DNA of 64,000 nt from Psychrobacillus vulpis (GTDB lineage: Bacteria > Bacillota > Bacilli > Bacillales_A > Planococcaceae). Where the stretch lies: NCBI RefSeq assembly GCF_006861825.1, contig NZ_VDGI01000003.1, forward strand, positions 133,989 to 197,988, given 5' to 3'. Of this stretch, positions 43,413 through 47,321 are shown piece after piece (position 1 is the first letter of the stretch; every line of letters begins with the position of its first letter). The notes under the pieces are model-generated. The model searched no databases. It was not told where the DNA came from and saw only the letters and a list, made by a program, of their open reading frames with translations. Both the position numbers and the translations under genes were made by a program.

Positions 43413-43465
43413 GATTCTTTTAAACGAGTATTTTTCGAATTTCAAACTTGGAAGGAGGTGAAATA

Positions 43466-44659
43466 TTGAATATCGCAGCAGTTGTAAATATGGGGAATAA
43501 TATTGCGGTCCAATCAAAAGGGCAGCAACAATCAAATCCAGCAAGCAATCAATTGTTTGGAAATGTTTTCGGCCAAGTATTATCCAATCAACAAGTACAG
43601 CAATCACTTACGAAAATTCCAAATAGTTCAGAACAAAATCTTATAGAAGAGTTAATTTCTATTTTAAATTCTGAATCAATGGAAGAAGTAGAAACTTTAC
43701 TGGGTGTAAATGAATTGACAGTCAATCCAAAAGAACTGAAAGAGTTATTGAATGAGCTTTTAGCGGAAGAAACTAATTCTCAGGAAGAACTGACAGAATC
43801 GAATGTTTGGGATATTTTAGCAGGTACCAACGGACAAGCTAACCAACTTGTTGAAGCAGTCATTAGTTCTCTAAATGGCCAAGGACCTACCACTCCTGTA
43901 GATTCAAAACGAGCATTACAATTACTGAAAGTTGTGCAACTCATAGGCAATAAATCAGATTTGACATTAAAACAAGAATCTACCCTATTCGATTTGAAAC
44001 AATTATTAGACGATGTGAAAGAATCGGTTGCGAAAGCGGGATCAATGACGACTCAAAATCCTGTAATCATTCAAGGTATGAAACCAGTTGTTCAACAAGT
44101 AATCATTAAGCAAATGACTAATCATACTGATACGGTTGTAGAGACAAAAGAAGTAACAACAAATACACAAGGTCCAACTTCTACTATTATACAAACAAAA
44201 GTAGAAACAGTATCTGTAACTTTGCCAACTGAAAAACCTGCTCAATCAGAAGAATTCGTGAAGGAACTTCAAAAAGCGATGAATCGTGTGCAGTTTGGTC
44301 AAGCAGGCGGAGCAAATCGTCTAGTCATTAAGCTTTACCCAGAACAGCTTGGAACAATTCGAATTGAATTAGTTCAAAAAGATGGAATGCTTACTACTAA
44401 AATGCTTGCTTCAACAGCGCTTGGAAAAGAATTATTAGATTCCAACTCGAATCAATTAAAACAAGGCTTAGCAAATCAAAATATTCAAGTAGAAAAACTT
44501 GAAATTACACAAGCTTTACAAGATCCTACAAGACAGCAACGGAATCAATCATTCCAAGAATCATTTAGACAGCAACAACAAGAACAGCAGGAAACGAATA
44601 CTGAAGAGCATGAGGATATTGCTACTTTCGAAGACTTTTTAAAAGAAATGGAGGTTTAA
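43466..44659 (+). CDS. fliK: Flagellar hook-length control protein FliK
   Basis: Secreted ruler that tells FlhB to switch from hook to filament export. The 397-residue product is Gln/Asn-rich and disordered for about 270 residues, then has the FliK C-terminal domain near 275-360 (NRLVIKLYPEQLGTIRIELVQ, KMLASTALGKELLDSNSNQLKQGL), and a Gln-rich tail. TTG 43466 follows AAGGAGGTG by five bases. A candidate TTG at 43448 lies before the SD. Confidence 0.92.
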   Translation: MNIAAVVNMGNNIAVQSKGQQQSNPASNQLFGNVFGQVLSNQQVQQSLTKIPNSSEQNLIEELISILNSESMEEVETLLGVNELTVNPKELKELLNELLAEETNSQEELTESNVWDILAGTNGQANQLVEAVISSLNGQGPTTPVDSKRALQLLKVVQLIGNKSDLTLKQESTLFDLKQLLDDVKESVAKAGSMTTQNPVIIQGMKPVVQQVIIKQMTNHTDTVVETKEVTTNTQGPTSTIIQTKVETVSVTLPTEKPAQSEEFVKELQKAMNRVQFGQAGGANRLVIKLYPEQLGTIRIELVQKDGMLTTKMLASTALGKELLDSNSNQLKQGLANQNIQVEKLEITQALQDPTRQQRNQSFQESFRQQQQEQQETNTEEHEDIATFEDFLKEMEV

Positions 44660-44662
44660 ATA

Positions 44663-45307
44663 GTGGCAGGAATGAATCCTATTAGTAAAGATATGTATCT
44701 GTCTAACAAGCAGCAAGCAGGCCGAAAAACTGGGAATAGTACACTTGGAAAAGATGATTTTTTGAAAATTTTAATGGCTCAGCTACAAAATCAGGACCCA
44801 ACAAACCCAATGAAAGACAATGAGTTTATCGCACAAATGGCTCAATTCTCCTCTTTAGAGCAGATGACAAACTTAACACAAGCATTTGAAAAGTATGCTG
44901 CAGCGCAGGATCAGACTCAAATGATTCAATATAGTAACTTCGTTGGAAAAGGTGTGAAATGGCACGAACTGACAGATAAGGTTGATGAAAAGGGTAAACC
45001 AGTAATTATTGAAGGAACAGGTAAGATTGTTGGTGTTAAGTTTGTAAAGGGTGGCGTAGAATTCACTCTTGAAGATGGAAAAGTCATTAATCCAGGTAAT
45101 ATTTCTGAAATTTTGTCTAGCAATTCCAATTCGAATAACCTTGTAGAAGCTAGTATGATGATTGGAAAAACTGTTACTTACAATGACGGTACAGCAGACA
45201 TAACTGGACAAGTTGAGTCAGTATCTACAAAAGATGGGAAGATTGTCTTTAATTTAGCAGGTGGAGCAACAATTACTTCTGACCAAATTATATCTATTAG
45301 TAAATAG
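44663..45307 (+). CDS. flgD: Flagellar hook assembly (capping) protein FlgD
   Basis: Scaffold cap for hook polymerisation. The 214-residue product has the FlgD core [21 protein letters not shown] and [19 protein letters not shown], followed by a C-terminal beta domain. GTG 44663 is seven bases after GGAGGT. It is followed by the TIGR02530-like gene and then flgE, the usual hook order. Confidence 0.94.
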
Positions 45308-45321
45308 AACGGAGAAGAGCG

Positions 45322-45702
45322 ATGGGCAAAATTAATATAAATCGCGTCCCGCTGCAACCTAGTATCCGTCAACCGATCACAACGAAACAAGTAACTTCAC
45401 CTAAACAATCGTTTTTACAGCATTTGCATGAAGCAACTGTTAAAACGGAATTAAAGGTAAGTAAACATGCTAATCAGCGTTTAGCTGAAAGAAATATTCA
45501 CATATCAGATGCAGAATGGCAACTTGTGAGTGAAAAAGTAGCAGAAGCACGCTCAAAAGGTGTGAATGACTCATTAGTATTGATGGATCAAGCAGCATTA
45601 ATCGTCAGTGCAAAAAATGCAACAGTGATTACTGCAATGGATCGCACGGAAGCGAAAAATCAATTATTTACAAATATTGATGGCACAATTGTGCTGAACT
45701 AA
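45322..45702 (+). CDS. Flagellar operon protein, TIGR02530 family
   Basis: A 126-residue protein with the features of the TIGR02530 flagellar-operon family, found between flgD and flgE in many Firmicutes. Its N-terminus is basic and proline-rich and the central part is SKHANQRLAERNIHISDAEWQLVSEKVAEARSKGV, which resembles a small DNA- or protein-binding fold. Function unknown; the location suggests a hook-stage role. ATG 45322 follows CGGAGAAGAG. Confidence 0.82.
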   Translation: MGKININRVPLQPSIRQPITTKQVTSPKQSFLQHLHEATVKTELKVSKHANQRLAERNIHISDAEWQLVSEKVAEARSKGVNDSLVLMDQAALIVSAKNATVITAMDRTEAKNQLFTNIDGTIVLN

Positions 45703-45780: not shown

Positions 45781-47040
45781 ATGATTCGCTCAATGTACTC
45801 AGGAATTTCAGGTTTAAAAAACTTCCAAGTAAAACTAGACGTAATTGGTAACAATATTGCCAATGTAAACACATATGGATTTAAAAAAGGTCGTACCATT
45901 TTTAAAGACTTAATCTCACAAACGACATCTGGAGCATCTGGGGCTACTGCAAATCGTGGAGGAGTTAATCCAAAACAGGTCGGACTTGGTTCTCAAATCG
46001 CTGCAATTGACACAATTCATGCAGGTGGGTCCACTCAAACTACTAATAATACGTTAGACCTTGCAATTTCAGGAGACGGATTTTTCCAGGTAGCTGACTC
46101 TACCAATGCTAATCGTGACGGATTTGTTAATCCATTATATACACGTGCTGGTAACTTCTATATGGATAATCAAGGTTACTTAGTAAATGGAGATGGATTG
46201 TTTTTAGTTGGTGGCGTTACTAAGGTAGATCCTACAATTCTGGGACAAGCACAAGCAGACCTTGCTACTGCAGAAACTGATTACACTACTGCAGCAGAAG
46301 CGGCTGCTTTAGCAGCAAAAACATTTGCTGATGCATTAGGATTATTAGAAGTCGATCTTGCGACAGCAAAAGCAGCCCTTGCAGCAGACCCTACTAATAC
46401 GGGGTTACAAACTGCAGTTGCCGATGCTGAAAAAGCAATAAAAGACTACAAGGATCCTACTTTAAGTACAGATGCAGCAGATGTTGATACTACGGCTAAA
46501 GCTGCAGACGCAGCGTCTAAAGTTTTAAAAAATGCGGAAGCAGCTGTCGCTAATTTAATTAATCCAGAACCTAAAAATGTGATGAAAAATCCGCTAGCAA
46601 ATGGTAATTTAGATACTGGTGGCGGTTATTTACCGGACGTACCTCTTACTGTAGGTGGAGAGTATAGACCAATCAAAATACCTACCGATGCGCAAAGTAT
46701 GAACATTGGACAAGATGGTACAGTTACGTTTGTTGATAAGGAAGGAACATTACGTTGGGCTGGCCAACTTGTTCTTGCGAAGTTTCCAAATCCAGGTGGG
46801 TTAAATAAAGTTGGCGCTAACTATTTCAAAGATACCTCGAATTCAGGGGCACCAATTATCCAAACTGCTACTTCTTCGGGTATTGGTACGGTTAACTCAG
46901 GTTTCCTAGAAATGTCGAACGTTGACTTATCTGAAGAATTCACTGATATGATTGTTGCACAACGTGGATTCCAAGCAAATACACGTATTATTACAACATC
47001 TGACCAGATTTTAGAAGAGCTTGTAAACTTAAAACGTTAA
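45781..47040 (+). CDS. flgE: Flagellar hook protein FlgE with alanine-rich insertion
   Basis: Hook subunit, 419 residues. The N-terminus MIRSMYSGISGLKNFQVKLD and C-terminus FTDMIVAQRGFQANTRIITT with EELVNLKR form the conserved D0 helices. Middle beta domains are at about 70-150 and 290-360. Residues about 155-262 are an Ala/Asp/Thr-rich, helix-prone segment (QADLATAETDYTTAAEAAAL, VDLATAKAALAADP, ADVDTTAKAADAASKVL). The B. subtilis hook protein is about 264 residues and lacks it. ATG 45781 follows GGGAG. The ORF upstream of it is leader. Confidence 0.95.
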   Translation: MIRSMYSGISGLKNFQVKLDVIGNNIANVNTYGFKKGRTIFKDLISQTTSGASGATANRGGVNPKQVGLGSQIAAIDTIHAGGSTQTTNNTLDLAISGDGFFQVADSTNANRDGFVNPLYTRAGNFYMDNQGYLVNGDGLFLVGGVTKVDPTILGQAQADLATAETDYTTAAEAAALAAKTFADALGLLEVDLATAKAALAADPTNTGLQTAVADAEKAIKDYKDPTLSTDAADVDTTAKAADAASKVLKNAEAAVANLINPEPKNVMKNPLANGNLDTGGGYLPDVPLTVGGEYRPIKIPTDAQSMNIGQDGTVTFVDKEGTLRWAGQLVLAKFPNPGGLNKVGANYFKDTSNSGAPIIQTATSSGIGTVNSGFLEMSNVDLSEEFTDMIVAQRGFQANTRIITTSDQILEELVNLKR

Positions 47041-47099: not shown

Positions 47100-47321
47100 A
47101 TGATTAACTTAACACGTTTAAACGGCAGTGAGTTTACGTTAAATGCTCTATACATAGAAAAAGTAGAGTCCTTTCCAGATACGACGATAACACTAACAAC
47201 TGGAAGTAAATACGTTACGTTAGATACTAGGGAAGAAGTAGCTTATAAAATTGCTCAATTTTATAAAGAAATACATATATTATCGAACCCCCATATAAGA
47301 GGTGAAGAACATGCAGAATAG
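47100..47321 (+). CDS. flbD: Flagellar protein FlbD family (SwrD/YlzI)
   Basis: A 73-residue member of the FlbD/YlzI family: MINLTRLNGSEFTLNALYIE with FPDTTITLTTGSKYVTLD. In B. subtilis the homologue SwrD increases motor torque and is needed for swarming. No SD is found within 20 bases of ATG 47100; the hairpin at 47064-47095 lies there instead. It overlaps fliL by 11 bases. Confidence 0.88.
   Translation: MINLTRLNGSEFTLNALYIEKVESFPDTTITLTTGSKYVTLDTREEVAYKIAQFYKEIHILSNPHIRGEEHAE

Follow-up and report, generated by a model that had tools for sequence, protein, structure and literature searches.

A predicted helical outer domain in the hook protein of Psychrobacillus vulpis and its probable exchange between species as part of an flgE cassette

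The flagellar hook gene flgE of Psychrobacillus vulpis encodes an alanine-rich segment predicted to fold as an accessory outer helical domain. We consider it probable that this domain and the D1-coding sequence on both of its sides form a cassette that has been exchanged between species, likely favoured for the changed hook surface that it would provide. The gene (45781..47040, forward strand, from an ATG at 45781 to a stop codon ending at 47040, 419 amino acids) lies in the window analyzed here, a 64,000-nucleotide stretch of contig NZ_VDGI01000003.1 (assembly GCF_006861825.1). Its neighbours on the same strand are, in order, flgD (44663..45307, 214 amino acids, Pfam FlgD and FLgD_tudor), encoding the hook cap and assembly protein, and a gene for a TIGR02530 family flagellar protein (45322..45702, 126 amino acids, over the cut-off of this NCBIfam model) ahead of flgE, and a gene for an FlbD-type flagellar protein (47100..47321, 73 amino acids, Pfam FlbD) behind it. 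The flgE product matched three Pfam families over their cut-offs, Flg_bb_rod (PF00460, 45.5 bits), FlgE/F/G D1 (PF22692, 61 bits) and Flg_bbr_C (PF06429, 63.9 bits, residues 373-417), and hmmer found FlgE and FlgG as its relatives in the PDB. The NCBIfam FlgE models scored below cut-off (e.g. 313 vs 469), and the sole equivalog over cut-off was NF009278 (263 positions), which is named FlgG, presumably an old label for Gram-positive hooks. We retained the name FlgE because of the gene position and because separate FlgF/FlgG-like genes, about 32-33% identical to the hook protein, are found at other sites of the same genome (C12). As NF009278 puts the FlgG name on 45781-47040, automatic annotation may mislabel hook genes of this kind.

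The initial annotation described an alanine-rich insertion of about 110 residues at 46243-46566 (residues 155-262), with both sides aligning well to the Bacillus subtilis hook, and our analysis agrees with this description. About 110 residues are absent from the shorter hooks of the genus, and hook proteins of 264-276 amino acids from the same genus and from other Bacillales align on both sides leaving a gap at the segment; the hook protein of Bacillus subtilis is about 264 residues long. Residues 150-262 (n=113) comprise 34 Ala, 18 Asp+Glu, 14 Thr and 8 Lys. The AlphaFold2 model, computed from 30 aligned hook proteins, just four of which contain the segment, predicted a three-helix bundle at residues 151-260 (46231..46560), with helices at residues 151-202 (46231-46386), 207-224 (46399-46452) and 230-260 (46468-46560) and block mean pLDDT values of 92-98. 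The whole model had a mean pLDDT of 75.5 and a pTM of 0.62, and D0 was modelled poorly (block means of 39-49 over the first 80 residues). At a rise of 1.5 A per residue, helix 1 would be about 78 A long. With one long helix and two shorter ones bundled together, the prediction differs from a simple coiled coil of two strands. Hence, of the proposed coiled-coil insertion in an exposed domain, the helical nature and the outer-domain position are borne out by the model and the alignment, and the coiled coil gives way to a predicted bundle. The heptad-like spacing likewise found partial support, since periodicity exceeded that of 1000 shuffles in two of the four known copies, those of the window (helical, 100 degree, p 0.014; heptad, p 0.019) and of P. 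faecigallinarum (p 0.001 and p <0.001), and did not in those of P. antarcticus (p 0.198 and 0.115) and P. soli (p 0.134 and 0.110).

Based on hmmer alignments, residues 301-418 correspond to residues 286-403 of Salmonella FlgE, and residues 306-419 or similar to other hooks, so that the insert sits between the two D1 halves as D2 does. Behind the helices, a linker (residues 261-293, 46561..46659) aligns with the 45-53 residue inserts of helix-less sister species (L045, L046, L047), which share the stretch YP-x-A...GNLDT that follows the helices. This shared stretch suggests that the helical part is nested in an older insert of about 50 residues, into which the bundle would have been placed. 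The Salmonella D2 occupies the same chain position and is a beta domain, whereas segment 151-260 is predicted to be all-helical; hmmer gave no sequence match of the segment to D2 chains of the PDB beyond an unreliable low-accuracy extension. The bundle would stand where other hooks have their beta-type D2, with the D0/D1 tube left intact. In Salmonella, the outer hook layer consists of D2, whose removal is reported to give a straight, still flexible hook (PMC6874566). Since D2 is outermost and its loss is tolerated, a domain added between the D1 halves should by analogy be tolerated and face outwards, and we infer that the bundle probably does so.

We looked for relatives of the segment in several collections. 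Neither Pfam (best E 0.78) nor, by phmmer, the PDB sequences (best E 0.1) gave a credible match; among the latter no FlgE chain appeared up to E 5, and so no similarity to the D3 and D4 domains of the Campylobacter jejuni hook at that limit. When the whole model was used as a Foldseek query, FlgG and FlgE chains were matched on the conserved part, and the matches to the C. jejuni hook chains 5jxl and 5az4_A spanned 126 and 80 columns, too few to reliably include the 110-residue bundle and D1 together. The segment is a credible candidate for a new outer-domain fold of the hook protein, as far as prediction goes. We also considered local origins. Within its genome the segment matched only itself at E<=1; this lack of a second copy set aside both a duplication from elsewhere in the genome and a phase-variable gene with silent cassette copies. 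A tandem repeat origin was discarded as well, for there was no tandem array and the direct repeats were only short ones.

A hook match was present in all 19 Psychrobacillus genomes searched, over the full length 1-419 in four of them, and a profile of the segment picked out those same four (4/19). Among 261 genomes of the order, no carriers other than these four were detected at E<=1e-4, so the insertion is, as first supposed, not an ordinary feature of the Bacillales searched. The carriers are G000, G001, G002 and G008, the last three with hook proteins identical to those of P. antarcticus, P. faecigallinarum and P. soli, respectively, which are the closest named relatives. The three other carrier proteins are 76, 77 and 74% identical to the window hook over the whole length, and the segment itself shows 33-51% identity among the four. 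An assembly artefact or chimeric read join, a possibility raised at the outset, deserves practically no credence: a homologous segment lies in frame at the same site in four separate assemblies, the three further ones excluding a chimeric join, and we found nothing in its favour.

The rarity of this segment contrasts with the variation in length at its site. Of 250 family genomes, at least 180 gave a hook match at E<=1e-40. Across 105 unique hook proteins, pooled from our two collections and with spirochaete and clostridial outgroups among them, the middle region measured 0-1 residues in 29, 2-30 in 30, 31-70 in 17 and 71-206 in 29, the values for L042 and L119 being not strictly comparable as their insert is anchored in a different loop. 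The suggested comparison of FlgE lengths therefore sets this particular segment apart and leaves length variation as such a common trait. Within Psychrobacillus, the hooks have 264-276 residues in six genomes, 303-329 in eight, 413 in one (G003) and 418-429 in the four with the bundle. The G003 hook, beta-rich as judged by eye only, fits none of the three insert classes, and we excluded it from the class counts and retained it in the trees. At this site some hooks thus have no insert and others a short one, one large domain of non-helical appearance, or the predicted three-helix bundle. Covariation between hook cap and insert was also considered: the lengths of FlgD and of the insert, compared for 104 of the 105 unique hook proteins with distant outgroups included, gave rho 0.21 and p 0.035 uncorrected for kinship, which we treated as no support.

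On trees made outside the D1-coding part, the four carriers are scattered. On the rpoB tree they need four changes, and a single clade was rejected (AU p 2.4e-6); four changes are also required on the tree of the adjoining fliM+fliY genes, where the single clade was rejected as well (AU p 7.5e-5), and on the tree of the D0-coding ends, residues 1-50 (45781..45930) joined with residues 373-419 (46897..47037). By contrast, the D1-coding sequence with the insert left out placed the carriers in one clade, with support of 98/99 for residues 51-149 + 294-372 and 100/99 for residues 51-142 + 297-372. The three insert classes need two changes on this tree vs nine on that of fliM+fliY. With the D1 data, the topologies of fliM+fliY and of rpoB were both rejected (lnL differences of 367 and 367; AU p 1.4e-4 and 9.4e-6). 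The D1 topology had an advantage here, having been drawn from those very data (516 columns kept, a short alignment), but the margin is large. The D0 data accepted both of these topologies (p 0.11 and 0.89) and rejected that of D1, so the two ends track the species tree. The background is not one clean species tree, since the fliM+fliY data rejected the rpoB topology by AU (p 3.4e-4) and not by SH (p 0.29); the fliM row of G014, used unchanged, has 299 residues vs 336-337 elsewhere. Among single parts, the second half of D1 (residues 294-372, 46660..46896) fitted the insert class best, residues 297-372 alone giving two changes for the three classes and a helical clade at 95/95. Residues 51-105 and 106-142, in the first half (residues about 51-146, 45931..46218), did not recover the classes on their own (six and five changes; four and three for the helical class). 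Third positions alone gave four changes and a helical clade at 76/87.

Synonymous divergence was followed in pairs of other sister species, the window genome having no close sister in the sample. Between G012 and G011, with hooks of 320 and 270 amino acids, most 150-base bins of a 12 kb region were 0.93-0.99 identical; the five bins at 150-899 of flgE were 0.64-0.82 identical, and the lowest value elsewhere was 0.78, in the fliY region. Their dS was 0.17 in fliM, 0.31 in fliY, 0.29 in flgD and 0.44 and 0.27 in the D0-coding ends (residues 1-50 and 373-419), and in the middle it was 0.88 (residues 51-105), 2.25 (117-144) and saturated (296-372). The same-class pair G014/G005 had dS of 0.06-0.28 across all five flgE segments. 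In G015/G013 and G008/G018, identity falls within flgE as it does in G012/G011. Since dS in G012/G011 is high or saturated in the middle segments and low outside, the middle has been replaced and not merely relaxed. The flgE gene thus shows both local tree conflict with its neighbours and raised dS in the presumably exposed part, as expected of a mosaic gene. Another stretch of low identity was noted in the fliK region (window 43448-44659), with 0.74 in G015/G013 and 0.67 in G008/G018, and not in G012/G011. As a separate observation, the flgD dS of G001 vs G007 (L171, L177) was 0.13 despite 0.63 in fliM, and that of G001 vs G017 was 1.81. Exchange thus seems to have reached flgD, the gene of the hook cap, as well.

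Four scattered carriers with one homologous segment at one site could also result from an ancestor that had the bundle and lost it repeatedly along vertical descent, in which case the tree conflict would be an artefact of fast D1 evolution in a short alignment. We regard this as very improbable, for it leaves unexplained both the high or saturated dS restricted to the middle of the gene between close relatives and the clade formed by the D1-coding sequences of the carriers. Tree conflict and middle-only synonymous divergence together point instead to a cassette, the middle of flgE, swapped by homologous recombination between conserved ends. The allelic unit would comprise the segment and the flanking D1-coding sequence and would move between Psychrobacillus species, perhaps also into that of the window, with the conserved D0-coding ends and the neighbouring genes serving as recombination arms. 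Judging from these sequence comparisons, the downstream break is near residue 372 and the upstream break varies with lineage. In G002 vs G012, residues 51-105 look vertical (dS 0.59 vs 0.56 for residues 1-50), and in G001 vs G017, residues 117-144 are not raised (dS 0.59 vs 0.61 in fliM). In keeping with this variable upstream break, the parts 51-105 and 106-142 alone miss the classes that 297-372 recovers.

Concerning the cause of the exchange, approximate dN/dS in the six carrier pairs was 0.33-0.63 for the helical segment and 0.08-0.54 for the linker, compared with 0.02-0.07 for both flanks. These ratios are rough, dS often being close to or over 1 and, for many pairs, close to or at saturation. 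Between close relatives, the D0-coding dN was near 0. With dN/dS below 1, the rates fit relaxed constraint without diversifying selection equally well. It may be, then, that any sequence which can be exported and does not get in the way is tolerated in the loop joining the D1 halves, that Ala-rich low-complexity helices accumulate there and that recombination merely shuffles them. The high, if below 1, dN/dS is what such neutral variation would give, and so are insert lengths of 0-206 residues in the 105 unique hook proteins and the apparently unrelated helical inserts, which lie in the same loop in L040 and in a second D1 loop in L042 and L119. We nonetheless find neutrality an unlikely account, if one to be taken seriously. 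Divergent alleles have replaced the middle of the gene in several close pairs, the flanking D1-coding DNA of each class stays together, and flagellin presents a similar pattern; these observations suggest that the versions are kept, and do not prove it.

The central hypervariable region of flagellin resembles the flgE arrangement in having conserved ends for assembly and a variable exposed middle, and differs in belonging to the filament and not to the hook. Two of three ortholog-like flagellin comparisons (G013/G015 and G008/G018; genes L201/L192 and L196/L199) had the flgE-like pattern of a variable middle between conserved flanks, with flanks mostly 0.85-0.99 and middle 0.48-0.68 identical. 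The lengths were 570/542 and 639/284, frames as read, that of G008 being perhaps cut by the locus end. The third comparison (G012/G011) may not involve orthologs, as the two G011 loci align poorly even outside the gene; the pair G005/G014 was left out because G014 had no frame. Among other flagellin matches, frames of 1072 residues (G003 C1:4289586) and 1155 residues (G010 C11:402781) with a flagellin N-terminal match may encode giant flagellins, and a flagellin-like match at G007 C15:13884-14273 contains an in-frame TAA and is possibly a broken copy.

Similar situations have been described in other hooks. The hook, a short structure of about 120 subunits, is said to combine one common part with another whose size and structure are hyper-variable, and in C. 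jejuni the latter includes D3 and D4, beta or alpha/beta domains nested in D2, which can be grafted into Salmonella FlgE with the cells remaining motile (PMC5069557). The C. jejuni flgE is listed as a hot region of recombination, its hypervariability being ascribed to host immunity (PMC4866539, citing Luneberg 1998). In both cases extra domains lie between conserved halves of the hook protein, recombining and on the surface in C. jejuni and, as we infer, also here. Unlike C. jejuni, where D2 is present, the Psychrobacillus hook lacks D2, its extra domain is predicted to be all-helical, and close relatives have no domain at all at the site. In Escherichia coli, FlgE is a mosaic with intragenic recombination and a local hypervariable stretch (PMC12175518), alike in these respects and, as far as that source describes it, different in that the variation concerns mosaic sequence types and not the presence, absence or change of fold of a whole domain. 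Hypervariable FlgE and recombining flgE are thus already known from C. jejuni, and mosaic FlgE from E. coli; the novelty here lies in how the carriers are distributed. Titles and beginnings of abstracts, mostly outside subscription papers, contained no account of such an insert or of flgE exchange in Bacillales or Psychrobacillus hooks. The present case extends flgE exchange to a free-living Gram-positive genus.

To our knowledge, Psychrobacillus is not a pathogen. The likely benefit of the exchange would be an altered outer hook surface, as with flagellin, against phages, predators or antibodies, and selection for surface diversity may be its cause. Phage chi reportedly attaches to polyhooks (PMC10399903), so an agent acting on the hook surface is conceivable. 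More specifically, we suggest tentatively that outer-domain versions of different fold circulate between species and are maintained by an outside agent able to recognise the surface of the hook, for instance phages or predators that use the flagellum. If this is true, the hook as well as the filament would be a diversified recognition surface in this genus. The insert could also act mechanically, the bundle packing on neighbouring subunits and altering the bending stiffness or supercoil of the hook, with variants adapted to viscosity or temperature. It does occupy the place of D2, whose mutual contacts set the supercoil in Salmonella (PMC6874566), and D3/D4 of C. jejuni have been proposed as hook stiffeners (PMC5097172). 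As the main cause this seems to us rather improbable, since tree neighbours differ in insert class and 33-51% identity among carriers is more divergence than expected for conserved subunit contacts; a mechanical effect might accompany the surface change, either as a by-product or as an additional cause. Hooks are commonly regarded as mechanical parts; here close relatives differ in whether an entire domain is there and in its predicted fold, with a polymerising core that hardly varies. The Psychrobacillus hooks are therefore a natural series for asking what outer domains of hooks do.

Helical inserts were also observed in other Bacillales hooks. Bacillus sp. PAMC26568 (L040, 501 amino acids) has a larger insert in the same loop as the window segment, with predicted helices at residues 172-225, 233-277, 283-303 and 317-353 (block means of 56-92), nested, as judged by eye, in a short insert common to L092. 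In L042 (Lederbergia) and L119, of the same family, the inserts are rich in Ala and look helical by eye; they sit in a different loop of D1, close to window residues 319-323 and not at the D2 position. With hhalign, the window insert matched those of L040 and L042 with probabilities of 0.06% and 0.54%. Shuffle tests, the only comparison made for L119, gave p<0.05 in four of 12 cases against L119, L042 and L040 vs p 0.003 in 4/4 within-class controls, mixed results that leave distant homology or shared helical composition as possible explanations. By these comparisons the inserts are apparently unrelated to the window bundle, which suggests that helical outer domains have originated more than once in Bacillales hooks.
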